Origin: Oscillatoria sp. HE19RPO
Lineage (GTDB): Bacteria; Cyanobacteriota; Cyanobacteriia; Cyanobacteriales; Laspinemataceae
DNA length: 53,808 nt
Direction: 5' to 3'
NCBI RefSeq assembly: GCF_024220515.1
Contig: NZ_JAMXOT010000166.1
Location: 1-53,808 of the forward strand
Made by a program: the position numbers and the translations under genes. Shown here piece by piece: positions 4,754 through 38,669 of this stretch; positions within the stretch are counted from its first letter, which is position 1; the number at the start of each line of letters is the position of its first letter. Below the pieces are notes generated by a model, which saw only the letters and a list, made by a program, of their open reading frames with translations, did no database searches and had not been told where the DNA came from.

Positions 4754-4879
4754 CCCAGCGTTGCCCCCCTTTTTTGCCCGATGAACCCCCAGGGAACCGG
4801 GAGAACCGGCCAACTTTTTCCGCTTTGCTCCATTTCCACAGTTCTAAAGTGTCTCCGATGGGGTAAGATATCCCCTATC

Positions 4880-5028
4880 AGGCGGTTCTGATGGGGTCCA
4901 GCCATCAGACGTAAGGGGGAAAGCCCGGTCCCAATCCGGCACTGTCCCGCAACTGTGATCCCAACCCCAGGTTTCCGGTGAATCTCGATTTGCCCTCTGG
5001 GGTCGGTAAGTCAGAATGCCCACCGCCT
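4880..5028 (+). ncRNA. Cobalamin (AdoCbl) riboswitch
   Basis: The conserved B12-box core is clear: GGGGGAAAGCCCGGT at about 4915, then AATCCGGCACTGTCCCGCAA and CTGTGA. The 3' part has GGTAAGTCAGAATGCCCACC. The closing P1 helix pairs AGGCGGT (4880-4886) with ACCGCCT (5022-5028). It lies 497 bases upstream of hupE on the same strand. In cyanobacteria, B12 riboswitches before hupE are established knowledge, so it should lower hupE expression when cobalamin is plentiful. A small hairpin after the aptamer (CATCTG...CAGATG, about 5048-5066) may be part of the expression platform. Confidence 0.93.
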
Positions 5029-5301
5029 CGGTCGTTAACCCTTACATTCATCTGCGAGGTACAGATGGGCATTGATTTTCCTTTACTAGAACACTCTATT
5101 CTGTCAATAGTAGCCCTGGCGCGTAACAGTACGGCAGCGCGATCGTACTTTTGACCCTACACCAACGCCGAGGGGAAAAATTTGCTTTCTTTGTGAGTTC
5201 CGTCAACCCGACTGAATACTCACATCCTAGCCAATTTTCTGGAAACCCAGGTCTCGGAATGGTTCCGAGTGCCTGATTTTTTCTCCCCATTGCCGGGGGT
5301 T

Positions 5302-5422
5302 ATACGGAATACGGTTGTCAAAGTCTATAAAAACCCGCACCCTAAAGGGTGGGGCTACACGAACAAAGCCCGCCTGCGCGGGCTAATCACGGAAATTGAC
5401 TTTTACCAACCGGATTTGGTAT
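5302..5422 (+). mobile_element. MITE-like element, copy 1
   Basis: 121-bp non-coding element whose ends are inverted (ATACGGAATACGGTT at the left; the right end is the complement of ATACCAAATCCGGTT) and carry TA at the borders, as expected of IS630/Tc1-type elements. The interior has hairpins ACCCGCACCCTAAAGGGTGGG and GCCCGCCTGCGCGGGC. A second copy is at 26536-26681 and a core-only copy at 38611-38669. It sits between the riboswitch and hupE. Confidence 0.75.
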
Positions 5423-11328: not shown

Positions 11329-11712
11329 ATGAATTGCCTACTGGATACCCATACTTTACTGTGGTACTTGCAAAACAGTGAAAATTTAAGTGATAGAGCC
11401 ACCGAAATTCTGGAAGATGCCAATAACAATCTCTCGGTAAGTATTGCCAGTTTATGGGAAATTTCAATTAAATTGGGTTTAGGCAAACTTAGGTTACAGA
11501 AATCATTTTCAGAATTAGAGGAAGTGCTACAACAACTAAAAATAGGCGTTCTGCCCATTACATTCGCTGATACCGAGTTCTACCTGAGCTTACCCCTCCA
11601 TCATCGCGATCCGTTTGATCGGATTTTGGTCGCACAAGCCATGAATCATCGCTTGGTTTTGATTAGTCGCGATTCGGCTTTTGATGCCTATTCCATTCAC
11701 CGAGTCTGGTGA
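11329..11712 (+). CDS. PIN-domain toxin (VapC family)
   Basis: 127 aa ribonuclease toxin of a type II system. Acidic catalytic residues are visible: Asp in LLDTHTLLW (residue 6), Glu in SLWEISIK (about residue 44), Asp in HHRDPFDRIL (residues 89 and 93) and Asp in ISRDSAFDAY. The length fits the family. PIN toxins cleave tRNA or rRNA when the antitoxin is degraded. The 3' end overlaps the remnant of a retropepsin gene on the other strand, which suggests that this toxin-antitoxin pair arrived by insertion or rearrangement. Confidence 0.9.
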   Translation: MNCLLDTHTLLWYLQNSENLSDRATEILEDANNNLSVSIASLWEISIKLGLGKLRLQKSFSELEEVLQQLKIGVLPITFADTEFYLSLPLHHRDPFDRILVAQAMNHRLVLISRDSAFDAYSIHRVW

Positions 11713-12254: not shown

Positions 12255-13430
12255 TCACATGAGCGCTAAAACAAACTCCCCCTCATTTACAGACTGGTTA
12301 ATCGAAACATGAAAAACCAATCCACATCTGTCTGAATGAACATTTTTAACGGTAGGAAACTCCTCTGACTTATCAAAGCTCAAAACCTGGTAGAGAAGAT
12401 CCCCCTGCTGAACCGAAGTACCAAGAGCTACTCTGGATTGAACCATGCCACCTACAGGTGCCCAGTATTTTTTAACTTGGCTTAAGGGTCTGAAACTCAT
12501 GTTGAGTTCCATGAATTGTTCTGGGGGCAGGCTTTCTATATTGAAAATCTCTTTTTGAACTAGGTAGTTCTTAACTCCACGAACTCCCTTAGAAACTGAA
12601 TTTGGATTCATTTCCATTCCAGTACCTAGTTCTAGGGTGTATGCCTCTACATCAAATTTGATTTGTTTCCCTAATTTAGATAGGGCGTTCTCTAGTGCCA
12701 GCCAAGGCTTCATAAACGCTTCGTCAAAAGCATCCCCATCATAATCATCAAACATGATGCCATGTTCGAGTAAGAATAATTTTGCACTTTCTTCGCGATC
12801 GCGGAAGTAATACAAATATTCCAACCCATAATTAGTGTTACTGTGCAAGTCGATCAAGTAGTCAGCATCTAAACAGAGAGATTGCACCTTATATCGATAT
12901 TTATCGGTTAGCTGAACGCTACTAGGGGCATCAATTTTGGCTTGAATCTGCTCAAAGCGAGTTTTGATTTTATCCTTATAGTTCTGCTTAATGATATCTG
13001 GCTCAAGATTAAGTTGTGACTGTGCAAACTCTTCTAAATCCTGACAAATTTTTTCATAGTCCCAGTAGATTCGGTTCCAATCTTTGCCATCATAGGCATT
13101 GAATCGTCCTGTAGCAAACTGATGGGAACGTTGGTTTGTTGCTAATGGATTACAGACTGGAACAAGCCAAATTTCTCCCGTTAAGACTTCTTGATCGAGA
13201 GTCATCAAAAACTCAATTAATTGATGAATGACAGCATTACCTACAATTTCATTGCCATGTAAGTTAGCTTGTAGGTAAACTTTTTTGCCCTGTCTAGCAC
13301 CAGAGAACTTATAGACCTTGATGGATAGACGATCGCCAGAGGCAAGTTGTAGGAGGGGAATGGTTTCAATGGTTGGAAGCATATCAATTTTAGTTGGGTT
13401 GGGTATGAAATTTAGATTAGCGCAGAACAT
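12255..13430 (-). CDS. M14-type deacylase (succinylglutamate desuccinylase/aspartoacylase-like)
   Basis: 391 aa zinc-dependent hydrolase. Zinc ligands are visible as His58 and Glu61 (NLHGNE) and His196 (DLHSN), with a likely catalytic Glu in VEAYTLELG (about residue 268-272). The C-terminal part (about 315-391) is a beta-rich biotinyl-like lid found in AstE/aspartoacylase relatives. These enzymes remove acyl groups from amino acids, or cut C-terminal residues from peptides. It is the last gene of the operon, 15 bases after the GNAT-methyltransferase frame. A start at Met17 (MLPTIETIPLL) is possible. In context it may deacylate a histidine-derived product or intermediate, which is inference. 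Confidence 0.85.
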   Translation of the reverse strand: MFCANLNFIPNPTKIDMLPTIETIPLLQLASGDRLSIKVYKFSGARQGKKVYLQANLHGNEIVGNAVIHQLIEFLMTLDQEVLTGEIWLVPVCNPLATNQRSHQFATGRFNAYDGKDWNRIYWDYEKICQDLEEFAQSQLNLEPDIIKQNYKDKIKTRFEQIQAKIDAPSSVQLTDKYRYKVQSLCLDADYLIDLHSNTNYGLEYLYYFRDREESAKLFLLEHGIMFDDYDGDAFDEAFMKPWLALENALSKLGKQIKFDVEAYTLELGTGMEMNPNSVSKGVRGVKNYLVQKEIFNIESLPPEQFMELNMSFRPLSQVKKYWAPVGGMVQSRVALGTSVQQGDLLYQVLSFDKSEEFPTVKNVHSDRCGLVFHVSINQSVNEGEFVLALM

Positions 13431-13445
13431 AAGTTACTGCACAAG

Positions 13446-14858
13446 TTAACGTTTTTGCTTTGCAACTACTTGAGAGCTAAAACGTATCCACTTTCGACAA
13501 TGAGGACGAAAATCGTAGAACACATCATTGTCTCCAATTGACTTCCATAGTTCATTTGGAAACAGGATATTTAGATTGCTTACCCATCGCTCTTTATCTG
13601 GCGTATAAATTTCATTAAAGTCCATTGGACTCGCAAAGATCAGATACCCGTTGGGAGAGAGTAAGTCGTATAGGGTTTGAACAAGGGTTTTAGGATTCGG
13701 ATGATGATCTGCAACATTAAGGCACGTAATCAAATCAAAATAGTTAGCAGGTCGCGGAACGCTTTCTGCAAATGCCTCGTATATGTAAAGTTCTTTTAAC
13801 CTAATAGGATCGGGGCGGTTTACAGCTTTTCCATAAGAAGGCTTATCACAGTTACCGACAATAGGAAAATAGCCTAGTTCTTCTGAGTCAATTAGTATTT
13901 GTTGAGCCCATTTACAAAACTTTGGAGATGGTTCTACTAATACCAACTCGGCTAAACTAGGGAAGGAATTGTATATCTCATATAAAGTACGCCCTGTTGA
14001 GCCACCAACATCAAGGTATTTCACGGGTAGGGAATGGTTCTTTTGTAGCCATTCTTGCGCTAGTTCACCAATCCGTCGATAGAAATTTGGATAAATACGA
14101 TCTGTTCTAGGATTAAGCAGTTTTTCATGGGAATCAGATAGAGTATTGCCGAATAAAAAATCTGACCACTCTACTTCGAGATATGTAGCTAGTTGCCATT
14201 CTGTGGTGTAGTTTTTTTTGTTCTCTGCCATTGTCATAATTTCTCCCTCCTTATTTATAATTCTGAGCATGAAAATTCGCCGATCTTTTTGGACGTTGCC
14301 ATCCTGACGCATCTGAGAGACATTTACAGCTTCACCTTCCACAAAATGAAACCCAAGCTTCTGGTAAAGTGATTGCGCTACAAGATTCTCCTCTGCTGTA
14401 TTCAAAAGTATATTTATAGTAGCATTTTTATCAGTAGAGACTAAAGTATCTAGGCAAGTCTTGACTAGGTGCTTTGCCAAACCTTTTCCTCGTTGATCTT
14501 GCCTAACACCTAATTCATCTAAATACCATGTATGTTCAGGGTTTAAACGAAAGCTTTTTTGCAAGTAAGTGCTAGAGAAAGTATCTTTTTTGTCAATCAA
14601 TTCAAAATCATCAAAACACTTCGTAACAAATCGGACAGCAGAACAGAAGCCAATAACTTCATTATCTAAGAATGCTAAAAGCAACACTACTCCTAAAATA
14701 GAAATATAAGAGGTGAATATCTCGCTTATTTCGTCATCACTGAAGTATTCTTGATATGGAGGCTCAGAAAACACACTTTGATAGAGTTGTATTAATCCAC
14801 ATTCAAATGCTTTTGGTAACTCTTCTAATTTAGTTAATCGAATTATTGTATAGTTCAT
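13446..14858 (-). CDS. GNAT acetyltransferase-SAM methyltransferase fusion
   Basis: About 470 aa. Residues 1-205 form a GNAT domain with the acetyl-CoA loop RQDQRGKGLAKHLV (about 121-134). Residues 210-470 form a class I methyltransferase with motif I LDVGGSTGRT (about 283-293), VEPSPKF and the DLITCLNVADHHP stretch. ATG 14858 has the AGGA site; a TTG two codons earlier is an alternative. At ATG 14237 a very strong Shine-Dalgarno (GGAGGG, about 7 bases before) lies inside the frame, so the methyltransferase may also be made alone. It follows the inserted element and probably modifies the pathway product; substrates are unknown. Confidence 0.8.
   Translation of the reverse strand: MNYTIIRLTKLEELPKAFECGLIQLYQSVFSEPPYQEYFSDDEISEIFTSYISILGVVLLLAFLDNEVIGFCSAVRFVTKCFDDFELIDKKDTFSSTYLQKSFRLNPEHTWYLDELGVRQDQRGKGLAKHLVKTCLDTLVSTDKNATINILLNTAEENLVAQSLYQKLGFHFVEGEAVNVSQMRQDGNVQKDRRIFMLRIINKEGEIMTMAENKKNYTTEWQLATYLEVEWSDFLFGNTLSDSHEKLLNPRTDRIYPNFYRRIGELAQEWLQKNHSLPVKYLDVGGSTGRTLYEIYNSFPSLAELVLVEPSPKFCKWAQQILIDSEELGYFPIVGNCDKPSYGKAVNRPDPIRLKELYIYEAFAESVPRPANYFDLITCLNVADHHPNPKTLVQTLYDLLSPNGYLIFASPMDFNEIYTPDKERWVSNLNILFPNELWKSIGDNDVFYDFRPHCRKWIRFSSQVVAKQKR
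14235..14252 (-). promoter_or_regulatory. Internal ribosome site before the methyltransferase part
   Basis: The minus strand reads AAGGAGGGAGAAATTATG at 14252-14235, in frame with the fusion gene. The spacing is ideal and stronger than that of the gene's own start. It suggests that the acetyltransferase and methyltransferase were separate coupled genes, or are still made as two products. Confidence 0.6.
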
Positions 14859-14918
14859 GTTCAATCCTATGGTGAGCTATATGGTGATTTTTCAAAGCGT
14901 TCTTTATGTGGAGCATAA

Positions 14919-15248
14919 GGAGTCGTGTAAAAATAACTTGACCAATTAGACCCCCCGTGGGATACTTAAGAAGTAGCGCTGCGGCGAGCCATACGATTGT
15001 GGACAATGAAACCCTAAAAAGCATTCGAGATAAATATGAGTCATTATTACCTTATTTGAATGAAAAAACACGAAGGACTGGAAGTCCAAGCAAACTTAGA
15101 TGAAAGTCGCTACGAAATAGGAATCAAAGTGGCGGATCAAGACTTTAATTCTATTGCTATTGAACCCCACTCTTGGAGGGGTGAATGGAACTATATCATT
15201 AAGCCCCGAGTCTCGCCGTAATTGACCAATTTATTTTTACACGGCTCC
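14919..15248 (+). mobile_element. Internally deleted ISAzo13-like element
   Basis: 330 bp with inverted ends: left GGAGTCGTGTAAAAATAA, right the complement of GGAGCCGTGTAAAAATAA. The flanking TAA (14916-14918 and 15249-15251) is a probable 3-bp target duplication. Inside are the first 26 and last 48 codons of a transposase. The element splits the operon between the S9 peptidase and the fusion gene, and its first base completes the present stop codon of the peptidase. Confidence 0.82.
14999..15221 (+). pseudogene. ISAzo13-family transposase remnant
   Basis: GTG at 14999 opens DNETLKSIRDKYESLLPYLN, the typical start of ISAzo13 transposases. At 15076 the frame shifts by one and continues with the C-terminus GLEVQANLDESRYEIGIKV, then HSWRGEWNYIIKPR and TAA 15219-15221. 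The whole catalytic region is deleted, so the element can only move with an outside transposase. Confidence 0.8.
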
Positions 15249-17263
15249 TAATAAAGGGATTGGGAACCAGATGGGTTGTCAATCAAGTTCCAATGTTTCA
15301 GGTATCGGGTAAAAAACCGAACAGACTCGCGCCAGTATTGTAGCTCTGCAACCTGACTAAAAGAATGTCCCTCGCTAGACATAATCTTGAGGGTGACTGG
15401 CTTTTTCCAAGCATGATCCTTAATAACTCTCTGTAACTCATAGGCTTGATTGACAGGAGTATCAACATCATGTTCTCCCTGAAATAGAAGTACGGGAATC
15501 TTTACTATTTCTGGACTGAATCTATGGATAGGCGATCGCTCCTTTACTCTTTCCGCAAGCTCATTCACATAATCGCCTACTAAACGATGGTCATAGTAAC
15601 GGACTTCAGTTTGAGTCTGCTGAGTGTGCCAGTTACTTATAAACCCACTACCACACGCACAGACAAAAGGATGTTGTGGTGCGGTAATTGTTTGCAGGAC
15701 AAGATATCCACCCCAGCTATACCCCCAAACACCTAACCGAGAAGCGTTTATATGAGGATGATTAGCAAATATCTCAGCAGTCCGAAGAACATCATCACGA
15801 TCGGCGATACCTAAATTTTCTGCTAGTCCTGCTGACATATGAACGACACCTTGACCATTGCTTGCTCGATAATTTACAGAGGCAACAGCAAATCCCTGCT
15901 TTACTAAAAGCTCAACCGAAATGAAACTAGAGTAACGGCTTAGGTTGGTGATTGGTCCGCCTTTAATCCAAACGATTCCAGGAAATCCACCTACAGGTGG
16001 CTCAGTATCGGGTAGATAAATTTGCACGTAAGGATGTTGCCCATCTTTTGTTGAGAAGTCTGTCAACTCTAGTTGTACTTTCCCTCGACGGTGACTACAA
16101 ATAGCTACCTCAGTTCTGCTTTGGTGAGTACCTATTTTCAAAAGAATAGGAGGCTGAAAGGCTTTTTCCTCATAAAAATAAACTTCAGAGCCAATTCTAG
16201 CAGCAATAGTTTCTACAGCATTCTGTGCTTCTGTGATTGCGTTCTTGTTACCAGTGCGATCGCAAAGCCAAATTGTCTCTCTTCCCAAACCCACTTCACT
16301 TGTAGTCAATAACCACCCATCAGGTTGTACCAGCAATTGACCATCATCGAAATTTCCCGAACAAATTGTTTGAGTAGAACTATATACAAGCTGTCCAACT
16401 TTTAGTGCAAAACGATGCCATTTAGCAAAACCAGTATTGTTACAACGGACTAATAATGGCAAATCACTATCATGTTTGTCCCAAGTAACACAGATACCTG
16501 CATAAATACCATCAGTATCTAAAGGAGTGTTACTAGGTGAGTTAATGTATAGTGGCGCTTCATTTATTATGTAAACTTCTGAGTATTGCCCCCAATTAAT
16601 GCCAACGGCAACCGTTTCCGCTGATATATCAAGGGCAGTAAAACTTTGAACTCGCCCATTTTTAACTCTACATCTTGTTTTAATGGTGCTTTTATCAATT
16701 GATACTTGTAAGAGAACTGAGTAACATATCGGTTCAGCTAGGCAATCATTCATTTCCGAGGTATCTTTATAAATGCTACGAAAGATTAATGATTTCCCAT
16801 CATCAGTAAATAATAAATCGGGGGTGTTTCGGTTAAGGTGAGTCTGTGTAAACTCATTGAAGCTACCTGTAGCAAAGTTGATTGATCCTTGAAATATCTG
16901 ATCAAGCGAACCATCCATGTAATCAACTATCCAAAGTCCTGATTCAGTGTCTTGCGAACTATTGACGGCAAAAGCAATATATTGCCCGTCTGGTGACCAG
17001 ATAGGCGCACTCAACTGATAGCTAGAACCTGAGTATCCAAAAAAATTACCTGGAAGAATTGTTTCTGGTAAGCCATCTGAGAAATTCAGCTTGTAAAGGT
17101 TTGTTACATCTCCAACTCGATGACAGGCTATCCAAACATTTTGTTGAGAAGAGAATGTGAAACCGTACCATTCTTCTTCTACTAAGAGTGTACTAAAAGA
17201 AAAGTAGTTAGGAAAAGCACTATTGTAGTTTGGATTAATTGAGTTTTTGTCGCTTAAGTTCAT
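15248..17263 (-). CDS. S9-family prolyl oligopeptidase-like hydrolase
   Basis: 671 aa. An N-terminal beta-propeller (about residues 30-400, with PIWSPDGQYIAFAV-type blades) covers a C-terminal alpha/beta hydrolase. The triad is visible: Ser in GVWGYSWGGY (about 514), Asp in GEHDVDTP (about 597) and His in SSEGHSFS (about 630). It resembles dipeptidyl aminopeptidases and acylaminoacyl peptidases; there is no signal peptide. Nine bases separate it from the preceding gene. Its stop codon is formed at the insertion junction. Removing the element restores a frame 16 codons longer, ending right at the ribosome site of the next gene. It could process or hydrolyse a peptide made by the pathway. Confidence 0.88.
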   Translation of the reverse strand: MNLSDKNSINPNYNSAFPNYFSFSTLLVEEEWYGFTFSSQQNVWIACHRVGDVTNLYKLNFSDGLPETILPGNFFGYSGSSYQLSAPIWSPDGQYIAFAVNSSQDTESGLWIVDYMDGSLDQIFQGSINFATGSFNEFTQTHLNRNTPDLLFTDDGKSLIFRSIYKDTSEMNDCLAEPICYSVLLQVSIDKSTIKTRCRVKNGRVQSFTALDISAETVAVGINWGQYSEVYIINEAPLYINSPSNTPLDTDGIYAGICVTWDKHDSDLPLLVRCNNTGFAKWHRFALKVGQLVYSSTQTICSGNFDDGQLLVQPDGWLLTTSEVGLGRETIWLCDRTGNKNAITEAQNAVETIAARIGSEVYFYEEKAFQPPILLKIGTHQSRTEVAICSHRRGKVQLELTDFSTKDGQHPYVQIYLPDTEPPVGGFPGIVWIKGGPITNLSRYSSFISVELLVKQGFAVASVNYRASNGQGVVHMSAGLAENLGIADRDDVLRTAEIFANHPHINASRLGVWGYSWGGYLVLQTITAPQHPFVCACGSGFISNWHTQQTQTEVRYYDHRLVGDYVNELAERVKERSPIHRFSPEIVKIPVLLFQGEHDVDTPVNQAYELQRVIKDHAWKKPVTLKIMSSEGHSFSQVAELQYWRESVRFFTRYLKHWNLIDNPSGSQSLY

Positions 17264-17272
17264 AGCAGTTGT

Positions 17273-18004
17273 TTAAGGATAAGATATAGGAGCGCGTAAT
17301 TGAGCTAAAACAACAATAGAATCTCCTTCGGTTCGGTGAAAGTTCCAATTTTTTAATTTTTCTTCAAAACAATAGTAATCTTTACTTGGAAATCTATAGT
17401 CACCCAAGACTCCCTCACTATAGACTCTCCTACAAATGCCATTAGTTTTATTTATTTTGAAAGCCACAGAAGCTTTTCGTATTTCAGATATATTTTTAGA
17501 TAAGAAATCTATGAGTTGCATCCCATCGTCTGTCTCGTAAGTTACATCAAATGGATAAACAACCTTTGCCACCCTTTTATGGGCTAAAAAGACTACAGGA
17601 TTTTGTGTTCTACAGCCAATCCAACTAAAAGTCTTGCCTGCAAATTTATTTGGTTCTTCAGTACTTAGTGTGTAAACCACTTGGTGAAGCACTTCAAGAT
17701 ACCTTGTAGCTAGATGACCTTGTACTTCTTTCAATAAGCAAAAAGCACCTTGCCATAGCAAATAGGTATCATTCCAAATCGGAATTTCTGGGACTAGATA
17801 AAATGCGTAGCCTGACAAATTATGACTTTCATCATAGAGTAGCCCTAATATAGTCAACTCAGATAAGGTAGCTTTTATGCCATCAATGCTCCACCCTCTT
17901 GACAACCCCATTCCGTTAAAGAAAACTTGATGTATCTGACTAGCAATATTATCAGTTGCTTGAATTTTCTCTCTCGGTAACCATTCCCATTGTAGTGTTT
18001 TCAT
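17273..18004 (-). CDS. GNAT-like protein of unknown substrate
   Basis: 243 aa from ATG 18004 (the frame is open to 18055, but that would overlap the methyltransferase gene). The middle contains LLWQGAFCLLKEVQGHLATR and a helix, similar to the acetyl-CoA-binding part of GNAT folds, followed by SWIGCRTQNPVVFLAHKRV, which fits the GNAT C-terminal half. The match is weak and no catalytic residue can be named. It sits between the EgtD-like and S9 genes with only a few bases on either side. An acyl or aminoacyl transfer role is inference. Confidence 0.6.
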   Translation of the reverse strand: MKTLQWEWLPREKIQATDNIASQIHQVFFNGMGLSRGWSIDGIKATLSELTILGLLYDESHNLSGYAFYLVPEIPIWNDTYLLWQGAFCLLKEVQGHLATRYLEVLHQVVYTLSTEEPNKFAGKTFSWIGCRTQNPVVFLAHKRVAKVVYPFDVTYETDDGMQLIDFLSKNISEIRKASVAFKINKTNGICRRVYSEGVLGDYRFPSKDYYCFEEKLKNWNFHRTEGDSIVVLAQLRAPISYP

Positions 18005-18008
18005 GAGC

Positions 18009-18971
18009 TTAAACCACCGATAAATAACAAATACTGAAATAGTTATTATTATCACTCCAAACCTTTACTAACTTAAATCCGCACTCTTCAGACATTTTTT
18101 TTATTTCCTCCATACTAAACTTATAAGAATTTTCTGTGTGAATACTTTCACCCTCTATAAACTTGAATTTTCGATCTGCTACACTAATAATTTGATCCTC
18201 CAAGCTCACCAAGTGCATCTCAATTCTGCCCTTTTTCACGTTAAATAAGGCATAGTGATTAAAACTATTCAGATTAAAATCAGCATCTAGTTCTCTGTTT
18301 ATGCGAGTTAGCAGATTCATGTTGAAAGCCGCAGTTACACCTTTTGAATCGTTGTAAGCAGCATGAAGAATTTGCGGGTCTTTTTTCATGTCAAACCCAA
18401 TTAGCATTCCACCACCTGAACCTACGATCGTTGCCGATCGCTTCAAAAGTTGTATTGCTTCCTCTGGCTCTAAGTTGCCAATGGTAGTACCAGGAAAGAA
18501 AATAACTTTCTTTTGAACGGAGGAGATAGCATACTCAGGGAGTAGCATTTCTGTCGTATAATCAGCATAAACCGCTAATACCTTTAGATTCGGATACTTA
18601 TCTGCAATCGTCTTGGATGCAGATAACATATGCTGTCTTGAAATATCAATTGGCATATAAATCAAAGGTTTAATCAGTGAATCCAGAAGGAAACCAATTT
18701 TTTTGCTACTACCACTGCCGTACTCAATAATGAGAGAATTTTCTCCAATTTCATCAGCAATATCTGAGGAATGCTGTTGCAAGATGCCAAATTCAGTTCG
18801 TGTCGGATAGTATTCTTCTAACTCACAGATTTGATCAAAAATCTTGGAGCCATACTCATCATAGAAGAATTTTGGCGGGATTTGTTTCTGTTGCTTGCTT
18901 AAGCCTGCCAAGACTTCATCTGGAAAATTGCTGATCTTGGGTTGCAAGTCATAGAATCTGAAATTATCCAT
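18009..18971 (-). CDS. egtD: EgtD-like L-histidine N-alpha-methyltransferase
   Basis: 320 aa cytoplasmic SAM-dependent methyltransferase of the EgtD family, which converts histidine to trimethylhistidine (hercynine) in ergothioneine synthesis. SAM loop IEYGSGSSKK lies at 82-91. The histidine-binding residues known from mycobacterial EgtD are conserved here as Asn166 (GTTIGNLEP), Tyr206 (AAYNDSKGVTAAFN), Glu280 and Ser282 (TENS). The length matches EgtD (about 320). There is no EgtB sulfoxide synthase next to it. Instead its start overlaps the end of a histidyl-tRNA synthetase gene by 8 bases, which points to coupled translation and a different end product. The substrate could be histidine or a histidine derivative. 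Confidence 0.88.
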   Translation of the reverse strand: MDNFRFYDLQPKISNFPDEVLAGLSKQQKQIPPKFFYDEYGSKIFDQICELEEYYPTRTEFGILQQHSSDIADEIGENSLIIEYGSGSSKKIGFLLDSLIKPLIYMPIDISRQHMLSASKTIADKYPNLKVLAVYADYTTEMLLPEYAISSVQKKVIFFPGTTIGNLEPEEAIQLLKRSATIVGSGGGMLIGFDMKKDPQILHAAYNDSKGVTAAFNMNLLTRINRELDADFNLNSFNHYALFNVKKGRIEMHLVSLEDQIISVADRKFKFIEGESIHTENSYKFSMEEIKKMSEECGFKLVKVWSDNNNYFSICYLSVV

Positions 18972-20298
18972 GACTGCACCTTAGCAATGTTTGTATAGTG
19001 GAAACCAGATCTTCAGATTGAACACTTTGTTGTTCTCCATCTGCCATATTTCGGATGAGAGCAGTATTTTTATCGAACTCTTCTTGGCCAATAATTACAA
19101 CAAATGGAATCCCCTTCTTGTTTGCATACTTCATTTGTGCTGCAAGCTTTTTGTCTTCGAGATACACTTCGGTATTGATGCCAGCATTTCGGAGAATTCC
19201 CCCAATTCTAAGATAGTCTTGTTGTCTATCTTTTTCAAGATACATAACTAGCACTGATGCAACAGTTGGTTTCGACGGTTGAATAATTCCAAGTTCAAAG
19301 AGTTTTGGGAGCAGCCTCGTTAAACCAATTGAGATGCCCACACCTGGATACTTTTTGCCGGCGAAATTAGCAGCAAGATTCTCATATCTGCCCCCACTAC
19401 ATATACTGCCAATGCCCGCATGACCAGTGAGCCGGGTCTCGTATATTGTGCCAGTGTAGTAATCTAAACCACGTACCATTGAAAGATCAATACCGTAGTA
19501 GTCACTTGGAACTCCCAAGTTACCAATACCTTCAAGGACTGTGATGATTTCGTTCAAACCCGTTTCAAATTGTCCTTTAATATTCAAGGATTTGAGGTAG
19601 TCTATCAATTCATCGTTAGAGGCTTTCTTTGAGAAGAACTCTAGGATGGACTCGATAGCAGTAGCACTTAACTCAGCTTTGGTTAAATCCTCGGTGACTT
19701 GGGTAACTCCAACTTTCTCCAAAGCATCAACAATACCAATAACAATGGGTACTTTAGGTTCATCAACACCAACATGAGTCAAAAAACCTTGTAAGATTTT
19801 TCTATTGTTGATCCTTATCTGAAAATGTCCAATGTTCAATTCCTTAAATATCTGGTAGATAATGAAGGGCATTTCAGCATCGTTTAATAGGGAGAGTTCC
19901 TCTTCTCCAATAACATCAATATCACATTGGTAAAACTGTCTATAGCGACCTGCTTGAGCGCGTTCACCACGCCACACAGGTTGAATTTGATAGCGTCGAA
20001 AGGGGAACGCAAGATCGTTAGCGTGTTCCGCCACGTAGCGAGCAAGGGGAACAGTGAGATCAAAGTGAAGGGCTAAATCTGTAGCGTCATCTCCTTCTTC
20101 GGCTTTTAGCCTGCGTAATCCATATACTTCCTTGCTAATGTTGCCTTTGGCAGTCGATAAGGTTTCAATGCGCTCAACTGCTGGTGTTTCGATAGGTACA
20201 GCACCAGCCCGTTCAAATCCCTTCCTGATGACATCAATGACTTGATTGAATGTGATCTGCTCTCCAGGCAAAAATTCAGGAAATCCAGAAATAGCCAT
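18964..20298 (-). CDS. hisS: Histidyl-tRNA synthetase paralogue
   Basis: 444 aa class II synthetase with all catalytic motifs: motif 2 VWRGERAQAGRYRQFYQCD (108-126), HisA RGLDYYTGTIYE (276-287), the ICSGGRYENL loop (299-308) and motif 3 GVGISIGLTRL (319-329). A C-terminal anticodon-binding domain (about 345-440) is present, so it could charge tRNA-His. The N-terminus GFPEFLPGEQ differs from the RGTxDIL type usual for cyanobacterial housekeeping HisS. Its ATG shares one base with the stop of the LOG gene. It is either an amino-acid-activating or tRNA-charging enzyme of the pathway, or a resistant spare synthetase. Whether it is the only HisS in the genome cannot be seen from this window. Confidence 0.92.
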   Translation of the reverse strand: MAISGFPEFLPGEQITFNQVIDVIRKGFERAGAVPIETPAVERIETLSTAKGNISKEVYGLRRLKAEEGDDATDLALHFDLTVPLARYVAEHANDLAFPFRRYQIQPVWRGERAQAGRYRQFYQCDIDVIGEEELSLLNDAEMPFIIYQIFKELNIGHFQIRINNRKILQGFLTHVGVDEPKVPIVIGIVDALEKVGVTQVTEDLTKAELSATAIESILEFFSKKASNDELIDYLKSLNIKGQFETGLNEIITVLEGIGNLGVPSDYYGIDLSMVRGLDYYTGTIYETRLTGHAGIGSICSGGRYENLAANFAGKKYPGVGISIGLTRLLPKLFELGIIQPSKPTVASVLVMYLEKDRQQDYLRIGGILRNAGINTEVYLEDKKLAAQMKYANKKGIPFVVIIGQEEFDKNTALIRNMADGEQQSVQSEDLVSTIQTLLRCSHG

Positions 20299-21044
20299 TA
20301 GTTCGATTCTCCATTGCTTTGTTGTGTTGGTTGGATTCTGGGATCAAAGTAGTCATCTAAAGCCAGCTTTTCGATGAGAAACTGGGATGCTTCTCGACCT
20401 GTGTATATACGATTCATTGGCATACACACATTTCTCACATTGGGTTTAACCCACAGATGGGGAAGTTGTTCTGCTGTGCCACCCGTACCGTAAATAGCAA
20501 CAATATATTTGGGCATTTCATTATTTTTTATTAGCGATTCATTGATTTTTTGGATGTGAGCACACTCTGTTAACGTCCCTGCGCTGCCACCAATCACAAT
20601 CATTCCGTCAATCAGAGATGTCCAAGTAGCCCCTTCATCCCCCCATCTGGCTTCCCCGATCATGGGATCTACGCAAATCGACAAATCTAATAGAGATGAC
20701 CCTAAAGTGTATTTCTTCCCTTTACGCGGAAATACACCAATGGTTTTGAACCCATATTCCTTTGCTTTTCGGGTTGCTAATTCTGGGATACCGCCTTCAG
20801 TACCTCCCGTTAAGATGGCAACCCTATATCCTCGCAATAGCTTGAGTGCGTCGGATATCAATCGTTCATGAAATGTATTGCGGAAAGCTATATACTTTAA
20901 CTGCAAATCATCATCTTCTGGGACTCCTTGCAATCTATCATCAGCACCACCTGAGAACCCGATAATCTTGTGAATACCATGCGACTGCATGAACGATTCG
21001 ACTTGTAGTGCATAGTTTTCCCGTCCGAGGATTTCAATTAACAT
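20298..21044 (-). CDS. LOG/SLOG-family Rossmann-fold protein
   Basis: 248 aa, first gene of the operon, with a good GGAG site 7 bases before ATG 21044. It has nucleotide-binding glycine motifs ILTGGTEGGIPELA (77-90) and VIGGSAGTLTE (150-160), the pattern of the LOG/SLOG superfamily. These include cytokinin-activating phosphoribohydrolases, nucleotide sensors of defence systems and putative lysine decarboxylase-like proteins. The canonical PGGxGTxxE is changed to GGSAGTLTE. It could hydrolyse or sense a nucleotide-linked intermediate; this cannot be settled by sequence. The stop codon overlaps the next start (TAATG). Confidence 0.75.
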   Translation of the reverse strand: MLIEILGRENYALQVESFMQSHGIHKIIGFSGGADDRLQGVPEDDDLQLKYIAFRNTFHERLISDALKLLRGYRVAILTGGTEGGIPELATRKAKEYGFKTIGVFPRKGKKYTLGSSLLDLSICVDPMIGEARWGDEGATWTSLIDGMIVIGGSAGTLTECAHIQKINESLIKNNEMPKYIVAIYGTGGTAEQLPHLWVKPNVRNVCMPMNRIYTGREASQFLIEKLALDDYFDPRIQPTQQSNGESN

Positions 21045-21362
21045 TGAGAACTCCAGAATGGAAAACGGTGCTTTTTGTGATAAACCTAAATTGTGGCCCA
21101 GTTTTTTGGCGATTTTTCATTGAACTTCAACTACTACTTTAAGTAGGATAACTATCTTTAATTAGGGAACACTGATTCATAGCCCTAATCATCTCAATTT
21201 TTTTCTAGTTCGTCAATACCATAAAAATGGGATTTCGGGGGGTAGTTATCAATGGATTAAAAGTAAAGAAATGGGATAATGTAGGATTTTGTTGCAAAAA
21301 GGGGGAAAATGTGGGATAATGGGGGGCCAAAGCCAATAAAACCACAACCCCCTTTAGCAGCT
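21045..21362. promoter_or_regulatory. Divergent promoter region between the operon and the NB-ARC gene
   Basis: An AT-rich gap with promoters for both strands. On the minus strand a TTGACG at about 21217 followed by an AT-rich spacer is a weak candidate -35 box; no clear -10 box follows. ACTACTTTAAGTAG (about 21130-21143) is a short inverted repeat that could be an operator. No gene is evident. Confidence 0.35.
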
Positions 21363-22721
21363 ATGGAGATTCAAGACGCTTTGCAGTGGACCGATGAGTT
21401 GATTTTTGACCGAACAGGGAAGCATCTGGACTCGCTGCAACGGGTTATTTTAGAGGGGGCGTGGGACGGTAAGGGATATCAGGATATTGCTGAGGAATAC
21501 CACTGTAGTAGCGATCACGTTAGGAAGTCGGCATCGGAATTATGGAAACTTCTATCGGAGCTTTTGGGAGAGAATGTTAAAAAAAAGAATGTCCGATCGC
21601 TCGTTGAAAATCGGATTTTTTCTTACAATGAGGGCGTGCATATTGGGAATAACATAAGTTTCTGTAACGATTTATACAAAAACTCAAAAAAACCGAAAAA
21701 CCGATCGCCCTCCACACCCAAAACCCAATCAGAACCTCGCCACGACCTCAGCCAAGCCCCTGATAACCTCCGCTTCTACAACCGCACCGACGAACTGGCG
21801 ACTCTCAAACAATGGATTTTGACCGAACAAAGCCGGATTATCACCCTCACTGGACTCTCCGGTATCGGTAAAACTGCCCTGGCTAGACAACTGGTGGAAG
21901 AGATTAAAGACAACTTCGATCGCATCCTGTGGCGCAGTCATCGCAAATTCCCCACCCTCAACGCTCTGCAAAGCCATATCATCGAATTTATCGCCCCAAC
22001 TTCCCCCATCCAAAATCAATCATTCATCAACTATTTAAACTCTCGTAACTCCTTTTTAGACTATCTCAGAAACCACCGCTGCTTAATCATTCTTGATGAT
22101 TTTCAAGACACCTTGACCCCTGGGGAGTTAGTCGGAAATTACTGCCCGGGATACCAAAACTATGGTCGTTTCCTCGAAGAAATGGGGCGATTTTCTCATG
22201 GCAGTTGTTTGTTGCTCCTCAGTTGGGAACAGCCCCTAGAAGTTGCCACCCTAGAAGCCGAAGACTGCTCCTGCAAAACTCTTCAACTTGCCGGTTTAGG
22301 GAAATCAGCCAGCCAACTCCTCACGACTAAAAAACTCCAGGACCAACCTCAATGGTCACGGCTGATTGAACTTTATAATGGCAACCCTTTGTGGTTAAAT
22401 ATCATCGCTACGGCTATCCTGGAGCTATTTGACGGGAGTGTGGAAACATTCCTCTCTTATCCTCCCCTCTATTTAGGCAATATAGAACCGAGTCTCAAAC
22501 AACATTATCAACGCCTCAGTGCATCGGAAAAAGTCCTCATTCGGTGGTTAGCTAACCAAGAACAACCTGTAGAGATTAGCCAGAAACCCCCGGAACTTTT
22601 ATCAGATTCGGATTTTTTCAAGGCGATTCAATCCCTGAAAAAACGCAATTTACTCCACAAATCTGCGGCTTTAACCCTAGACCCGGTGATGCAACACTAT
22701 GTTAGAAGTTTGAGTGATTAG
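21363..22721 (+). CDS. NB-ARC-type STAND ATPase with N-terminal HTH
   Basis: About 452 aa from MEIQDALQWTDELIF (ATG 21363); an earlier in-frame ATG at 21309 gives unlikely sequence. The first 85 residues resemble the helix-turn-helix seen in cyanobacterial vWA-MoxR-associated proteins (YQDIAEEYHCSSDHVRKSAS). An NB-ARC ATPase follows, with Walker A GLSGIGKTALA (about 164-174) and Walker B CLIILDDFQD. The usual C-terminal WD40 or TPR repeats are missing; the protein ends in a winged-helix-like part. STAND ATPases often sense invaders or stress. It is divergent from the histidine-linked operon. It may be complete or truncated. Confidence 0.8.
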   Translation: MEIQDALQWTDELIFDRTGKHLDSLQRVILEGAWDGKGYQDIAEEYHCSSDHVRKSASELWKLLSELLGENVKKKNVRSLVENRIFSYNEGVHIGNNISFCNDLYKNSKKPKNRSPSTPKTQSEPRHDLSQAPDNLRFYNRTDELATLKQWILTEQSRIITLTGLSGIGKTALARQLVEEIKDNFDRILWRSHRKFPTLNALQSHIIEFIAPTSPIQNQSFINYLNSRNSFLDYLRNHRCLIILDDFQDTLTPGELVGNYCPGYQNYGRFLEEMGRFSHGSCLLLLSWEQPLEVATLEAEDCSCKTLQLAGLGKSASQLLTTKKLQDQPQWSRLIELYNGNPLWLNIIATAILELFDGSVETFLSYPPLYLGNIEPSLKQHYQRLSASEKVLIRWLANQEQPVEISQKPPELLSDSDFFKAIQSLKKRNLLHKSAALTLDPVMQHYVRSLSD

Positions 22722-38610: not shown

Positions 38611-38669
38611 TAAAAACCCGCACCCTGAAGGGTGGGGCTATACGGACGAAGCCCGCCTGCGCGGGCTAA
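38611..38669 (+). repeat. Core of the MITE-like family, copy 3
   Basis: Contains the two inner hairpins (ACCCGCACCCTGAAGGGTGG and GCCCGCCTGCGCGGGC) shared with the elements at 5302 and 26536, but without their inverted ends. Confidence 0.7.

Follow-up and report, generated by a model that had tools for sequence, protein, structure and literature searches.

A Putative Mobile Hercynine Module with a Spare Histidyl-tRNA Synthetase in Oscillatoria sp. HE19RPO

Gene content of the operon

The contig NZ_JAMXOT010000166.1 of the cyanobacterium Oscillatoria sp. HE19RPO, analysed here over a stretch of 53,808 nucleotides that we call the window, carries seven open reading frames (ORFs) between positions 12255 and 21044, all on the minus strand and packed into a compact operon, whose coordinates were checked against the sequence. 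The first operon gene encodes a SLOG/LOG-type protein of 248 amino acids (aa; 20298..21044), followed by a full-length histidyl-tRNA synthetase of 444 aa, named HisRS2 (18964..20298), and a 320 aa member of the histidine N-alpha-methyltransferase family, named EgtD2 (18009..18971). Further downstream lie ORF4, a 243 aa protein without family that is GNAT-like by eye only (17273..18004), an S9-family alpha/beta-hydrolase of 671 aa whose N-terminal half matches a PD40 propeller repeat (15248..17263), a GNAT acyltransferase fused in frame to an S-adenosylmethionine (SAM) methyltransferase, named GNAT-MT (13446..14858), and an AstE/aspartoacylase-type, M14-like zinc hydrolase of 391 aa (12255..13430). 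Most cautiously, this locus can be read as a mobile hercynine module whose spare HisRS looks active, while the tailoring genes behind it suggest a derived product in the window's organism.

Base 20298 is common to the SLOG and HisRS2 genes (TAATG), and HisRS2 and EgtD2 overlap by 8 bases (18964-18971). Gaps of 4, 9 and 15 bases separate EgtD2 from ORF4 (taking the ORF4 ATG at 18004), ORF4 from the S9 gene and GNAT-MT from the M14-like gene, the last being the largest spacing between operon neighbours apart from the S9/GNAT-MT gap. The original prediction, made from the letters of the stretch, had described seven tightly packed ORFs, and they stand as it placed them, with overlaps or small gaps at every junction except this one. 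The S9/GNAT-MT gap, the sole large one in the operon, contains a 338-bp element (14915-15252; strand not assigned) detected by an inverted-repeat search. Its 34-nt terminal inverted repeats (14915-14948 and 15219-15252) are 85% complementary, one of its ends runs into the final bases of the S9 gene, and its repeat pattern has no further match within the window; the element is probably an insertion-sequence remnant. The guanine-cytosine (GC) content of the operon genes amounts to 36-43%, compared with 47-51% in three flanking stretches, and no tRNA gene or known RNA element was detected at the operon.

Family profiles support most of the assignments given originally. The GNAT, the second methyltransferase and the S9 and M14 hydrolases were confirmed at family level, whereby the S9 translation shows the Ser/Asp/His motifs GYSWGGY, GEHDVDTPV and EGHSF and the AstE-like hydrolase retains its zinc-ligand motifs in comparison with 3fmc. 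The presumed LOG protein does belong to the SLOG family, matching Pfam LDcluster4 with 34.7 bits (cut-off 26.3), but its likeness to TIGR00725 is weak and it falls far under the cut-offs of both TIGR00725 and TIGR00730. As for the two acyltransferase folds proposed, the GNAT of GNAT-MT holds, whereas ORF4 found only an unrelated and insignificant best Pfam match (E 0.062) and nothing in the PDB up to an E value of 10, and its AlphaFold model from the single sequence, with a predicted local distance difference test (pLDDT) score of 36.7, is unusable. An acyltransferase function of ORF4 is therefore a guess. As regards an aminoacyl-tRNA transferase of the FemX-like GNAT, cyclodipeptide synthase (CDPS), LanB-like or aminoacyl-tRNA synthetase (aaRS)-like kind, the operon shows an ordinary GNAT domain, and ORF4 belongs to no family. 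The methyltransferase part of GNAT-MT could start independently, at an ATG at 14237 that follows a separate GGAGG; GNAT-MT may represent two genes, and the operon hence eight cistrons. The best NCBIfam match of this domain is TIGR04345, at 45.6 bits against a cut-off of 170, so that it is not assigned to OvoA/OvoM, and its PDB relatives comprise OvoM and OvsM alongside UbiG-type enzymes. In Vibrio campbellii (NZ_CP050465.1, locus L057, 7343-8768), a GNAT gene stands right before a methyltransferase that is 29% identical to the methyltransferase domain of GNAT-MT; as a parallel of GNAT-MT this pair was rejected, the Vibrio GNAT being barely similar to that of the window (E 0.052).

Extra copies of HisRS and EgtD

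HisRS2 scores 391.9 bits against TIGR00442, above the cut-off of 286.75, and retains DLTVPLARY, the motif-2 loop WRGERAQAGRYRQF, RGLDYYTG, GGRYENL and GVGISIGLTRLL; class II motifs 2 and 3 are kept and an anticodon-binding domain is present. Contig C258 of the genome carries an ordinary HisRS gene (505 bits), and C122 a HisZ-like one (205.5 bits). Since both the C258 HisRS and HisRS2 (contig C135, that of the window) exceed the HisRS cut-off, the operon enzyme counts as an extra aaRS, and with only 26% identity to the ordinary enzyme it lies on another branch of the tree.

EgtD2 scores 394.1 bits against TIGR03438, above the equivalog cut-off of 290.9, and retains every histidine-site residue on the list checked, which we take to comprise Y39, Y56, G161, N166, Y206, M252, E282 and S284 in the numbering of M. 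smegmatis EgtD. Judged from their sequences, both HisRS2 and EgtD2 look active. Across the whole genome (7.67 Mb, 511 contigs) three EgtD-family genes were detected, on C364 (402 bits), on C135 in the window (367 bits) and on C256 (177 bits). The C364 copy is shortly preceded by an EgtB-like gene, which reaches 351 bits against TIGR03440, just under the cut-off of 360, and is the sole strong EgtB-like match in the genome, the window's contig yielding none. Before it lies an ORF with MCRLLAYLG near its start, presumably EgtC-like by this motif.

Given the C258 HisRS and the C364 EgtB-like/EgtD genes in the same genome, HisRS2 and EgtD2 are extra copies, and neither is needed for its ordinary job. 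The full-length HisRS paralogue, the EgtD with intact histidine-binding residues and the absence of EgtB from the operon, all part of the original prediction, are thereby borne out. An identity as a mere ergothioneine locus, with EgtB/EgtC encoded elsewhere, had been raised at the same time; an EgtB-like gene and an EgtC-like ORF do exist elsewhere, but they stand by a separate EgtD on C364, and the operon was rejected as an ergothioneine locus.

Distribution, linkage and mobility

Scanning genome contigs for the SLOG protein gave 61 pattern matches and one relative, 97% identical, at locus L101 of the metagenome-assembled genome (MAG) Oscillatoriales cyanobacterium SM2_2_1 (G669). There, SLOG, HisRS and EgtD follow each other in the same order as in the window, with 97%, 94% and 80% aa identity, succeeded by a frame-broken GNAT (~45% identity) and an IS66 transposase; ORF4, the S9 hydrolase, the methyltransferase and the M14 hydrolase have no match on the 11 kb of G669. 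As the ordinary HisRS enzymes of the two genomes are only 61% identical, compared with 94% for HisRS2, the SLOG-HisRS-EgtD block has moved between lineages. Synonymous and nonsynonymous substitution rates (dS/dN) between window and G669 are 0.24/0.015 for SLOG, 0.33/0.033 for HisRS and 0.77/0.12 for EgtD, and the resulting dN/dS ratios of ~0.06, ~0.10 and ~0.16 indicate purifying selection on these three genes.

The remaining genes are distributed differently. Of 386 cyanobacterial genomes, ORF4 turned up in that of the window alone, and it had no relative in genome, viral or plasmid collections, whose genome and viral queries detect close relatives only. SLOG matches occur in 16 of the 386 genomes, all except its own being weak (≤27.5 bits), and within the family in 2 of 14 genomes, namely its own and one with a 21-bit match. 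Among 17 loci compared, the downstream operon genes were seen in none of the others, save for the frame-broken GNAT of G669. The original prediction of seven genes forming one conserved pathway is therefore not supported: the joint neighbourhood it proposed to look for in cyanobacteria was seen as SLOG-HisRS-EgtD with a broken GNAT in G669 and as HisRS-EgtD elsewhere, while the full set was not found again. Concerning other vehicles, a viral origin was rejected after single-protein queries with ORF4, EgtD2, SLOG, GNAT-MT and HisRS2, which detect close relatives only, gave no relative in viral contigs. On plasmids, ORF4 and SLOG had no match and the other five operon proteins matched at <60% identity; a HisRS on an Embleya megaplasmid (45%) was dismissed as a parallel cluster, no other operon protein being encoded nearby.

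The link between HisRS and EgtD is more widespread. EgtD2 matched in 362 of 388 genomes of the order, and among the best 30 loci from these 362 genomes, eight genomes besides the window's have a copy at 52-66% identity, the rest lying at 37-46%. HisRS adjoins EgtD in G398, G547 and G399; in G515 a TnpB gene intervenes between the two. Counted over distinct loci with ~1.5 kb flank (49 of 52 loci, L118, L119 and L137 being left out as repeats of a place), HisRS stands beside EgtD in 5 of 9 loci whose EgtD is at least 50% identical (4 of 8 without the window) versus 0 of 40 other EgtD-family loci, whereby the nine loci are related to one another and the 40 are mostly best-scoring rather than random matches, some of them cut by contig ends (e.g. 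L073, L086, L094, L100).

The gene order is HisRS followed by EgtD in the window and G669, and the reverse in the other linked genomes. The EgtD tree groups window, G669 and G398 (99/98). For the HisRS tree, 13 loci were taken from the 29 of L011-L039 and a motif filter removed one, leaving 12 Nostoc-type rows. Here window and G669 pair with each other, and G398, G399, G515 and G547 cluster with the Nostoc-type HisRS (100/100); long branches weaken deep placement in this tree, including that of the window pair relative to Embleya, Paraclostridium and the Nostoc type, and tree rows other than the window's are open segments between stops. Because the linkage label needs four changes on the trees (the starred branches force four on the HisRS tree and two on the EgtD tree), the linkage was gained or lost more than once, and because two HisRS lineages and opposite gene orders are involved, it either formed more than once or had its HisRS swapped. 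In G398 (L102, 5330-10323) a HisRS-like gene (517 aa), HisG, EgtD and HisRS run in one direction, and the presence of HisG ties the pair to histidine supply. The 517 aa protein matches the HisRS domain in two pieces and keeps most HisRS motifs, with RGIQYY as the deviating one.

Two other EgtD neighbourhoods were encountered. At L108 (G477:C9, 6312-14393) a run comprises an AIR-synthase-like gene (possibly SelD), EgtD, an FGE-sulfatase EgtB-like gene, a second EgtD, a methyltransferase, an alliinase-like aminotransferase, a 2OG-Fe oxygenase and DUF427, possibly an undescribed thio- or seleno-histidine cluster. At L110, L111, L112, L113 and L114, in five genomes, EgtD (~45% identity) lies beside a conserved protein of 412-424 aa (68-94% mutual identity), whose L110 copy, the one scanned, is FGE-sulfatase/DinB and EgtB-like.

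Around the operon, an NB-ARC/STAND protein (21309-22721, plus strand) is transcribed divergently from it, and downstream lies the gene of a PIN-domain protein (11329-11712, plus strand), which may act as toxin in a toxin-antitoxin pair. A defence island was rejected: PADLOC returned one weak match for the seven operon proteins (GNAT-MT to mad2, 36.1 bits). Elsewhere in the window lie a cobalamin riboswitch (4866-5041, plus strand; 45 bits) and, at two distant places (5362-5385 and 38645-38668), one match each to the CRISPR-DR28 repeat model, barely above threshold.

Proposed function and comparison with known systems

We tentatively favour, at somewhat less than even confidence, the view that the operon is horizontally mobile and channels histidine into hercynine, with the latter or a histidine partner being converted further to a specialised metabolite. 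From the protein families we infer that EgtD2 would trimethylate histidine to hercynine (N-alpha-trimethylhistidine). HisRS2, as an active synthetase, would primarily secure the supply of histidyl-tRNA, either against the drain that EgtD2 puts on the histidine pool or against interference of the product with the ordinary HisRS, and might also provide His-tRNA to an operon transferase in the manner of AcmD, which serves AcmF in the making of ascamycin. Acylation, methylation and trimming or deprotection of the product could fall to the GNAT, the OvoM-like methyltransferase and the two hydrolases (S9 and AstE-type), and any part played by the SLOG protein or ORF4 would be conjectural. Quite unlikely, in our estimate, is a direct role of HisRS2 in biosynthesis, by which it provides His-tRNA or a histidyl- or hercynyl-adenylate and ORF4, the GNAT or HisRS2 itself moves histidine onto an amine, joining histidyl-tRNA to EgtD chemistry. 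The original suggestion that histidine or trimethylhistidine is activated and made into a peptide-like product likewise received no direct support.

Several observations weigh against the favoured proposal. The complete seven-gene set has no relative that we found. With ORF4 lacking a detectable relative and the G669 GNAT carrying a broken frame, the tailoring genes may be independent of the core. Of the nine related loci, three (G407, G477, G581) show no HisRS on the EgtD stretch examined; in G536 the EgtD ends near a contig end and a HisRS begins 65 bases inside a different contig, an arrangement compatible with adjacency though not proof of it. In each of G398, G399, G515, G536 and G547 only one EgtD was matched. 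These five genomes hold a Nostoc-type HisRS and a longer HisRS-family gene (open frames of 516-591 aa), and none showed the HisRS type scoring 485-519 bits that was seen in G391, G407, G477 and G669; their linked HisRS may be their main HisRS, and the pairing may only coordinate two histidine users. Four of the five have EgtB-like genes elsewhere, at 349-355 bits and all below cut-off, that of G399 with one internal stop, and the EgtB-like match of G536 is split.

The leading alternative, which we consider somewhat unlikely, is one of histidine economy only: the cassette would be raising hercynine as an osmolyte or antioxidant or feeding ordinary ergothioneine synthesis, with HisRS2 protecting translation, the downstream enzymes belonging to other pathways and no new product formed. 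This fits well with the HisRS-EgtD pairs of G398, G399, G515 and G547, which lack the tailoring genes and in one case have HisG alongside, and with G669, where the core is intact while the GNAT is broken and the other four downstream genes are unmatched. Hercynine was moreover reported for 9 of 10 cyanobacterial strains profiled (PMC3826126). However, another EgtD, with an EgtB-like gene next to it, is already present in the window's genome, and because ORF4 and S9 lie only 4-9 bases from their upstream neighbours and a GNAT follows EgtD in G669 too, some tailoring genes do travel with the core. We regard as very doubtful that HisRS2 is a product-resistant copy protecting the organism from a histidyl-tRNA synthetase inhibitor made by the operon. 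Spare aaRS genes in biosynthetic clusters are known to signal self-resistance, as PMC12945691 and PMC6331615 describe for AcmD and SbzA, and HisRS2 differs in branch from the ordinary enzyme, but HisRS-EgtD pairs occur elsewhere without tailoring genes, and G407 and G477, which have a related EgtD, strongly matched only an ordinary-type HisRS and a HisZ-like gene. Least probable of all is a chance accretion of unrelated genes on a mobile low-GC island with no joint function, for which the element inserted within the operon, the IS66 transposase next to the core in G669 and the patchy occurrence with changing neighbours could be cited, but against which speak the recurrent linkage of HisRS with EgtD, the overlap of start and stop codons and the purifying selection seen for three of the genes.

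Where HisRS and EgtD genes adjoin, two competitors for free histidine are coupled, and two HisRS lineages take part in such coupling; at title and abstract level, with most subscription journals outside coverage, we found no report of such a pairing. A product of the operon, should there be one, would extend the histidine-derived metabolites beyond ergothioneine, selenoneine and ovothiol, and histidine might join the amino acids known to be drawn from tRNA in natural product synthesis.

Compared with known systems, HisRS2 shares architecture, motifs and ~50% identity with Nostoc-type histidyl-tRNA synthetases (PDB 3net), but sits on a separate branch and, both in G669 and in the window's genome, comes on top of another HisRS. 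With the egtB-egtD ergothioneine locus the operon has in common an EgtD of one family with an intact histidine site, whereas it lacks EgtB and adds a HisRS, a SLOG protein and hydrolases. OvoM and the C-terminal domain of OvoA are among the nearest named relatives of the GNAT-MT methyltransferase domain, which however lies far under the OvoA cut-off and is fused to, or comes right after, a GNAT. Published precedent for a spare synthetase within a biosynthetic cluster is given by AcmD and SbzA (PMC12945691, PMC6331615), the extra AlaRS AcmD both supplying Ala-tRNA and resisting ascamycin (PMC12945691). The operon differs from the ascamycin cluster (AcmD/AcmE/AcmF) and the SbzA, VlmA and DhpH pathways in centring on histidine instead of alanine or isoleucine and in its EgtD, and no FemX-like double-GNAT protein or truncated synthetase was recognised in it; what it shares with them is a seemingly complete extra tRNA synthetase encoded next to acyltransferase-type and alpha/beta-hydrolase genes.

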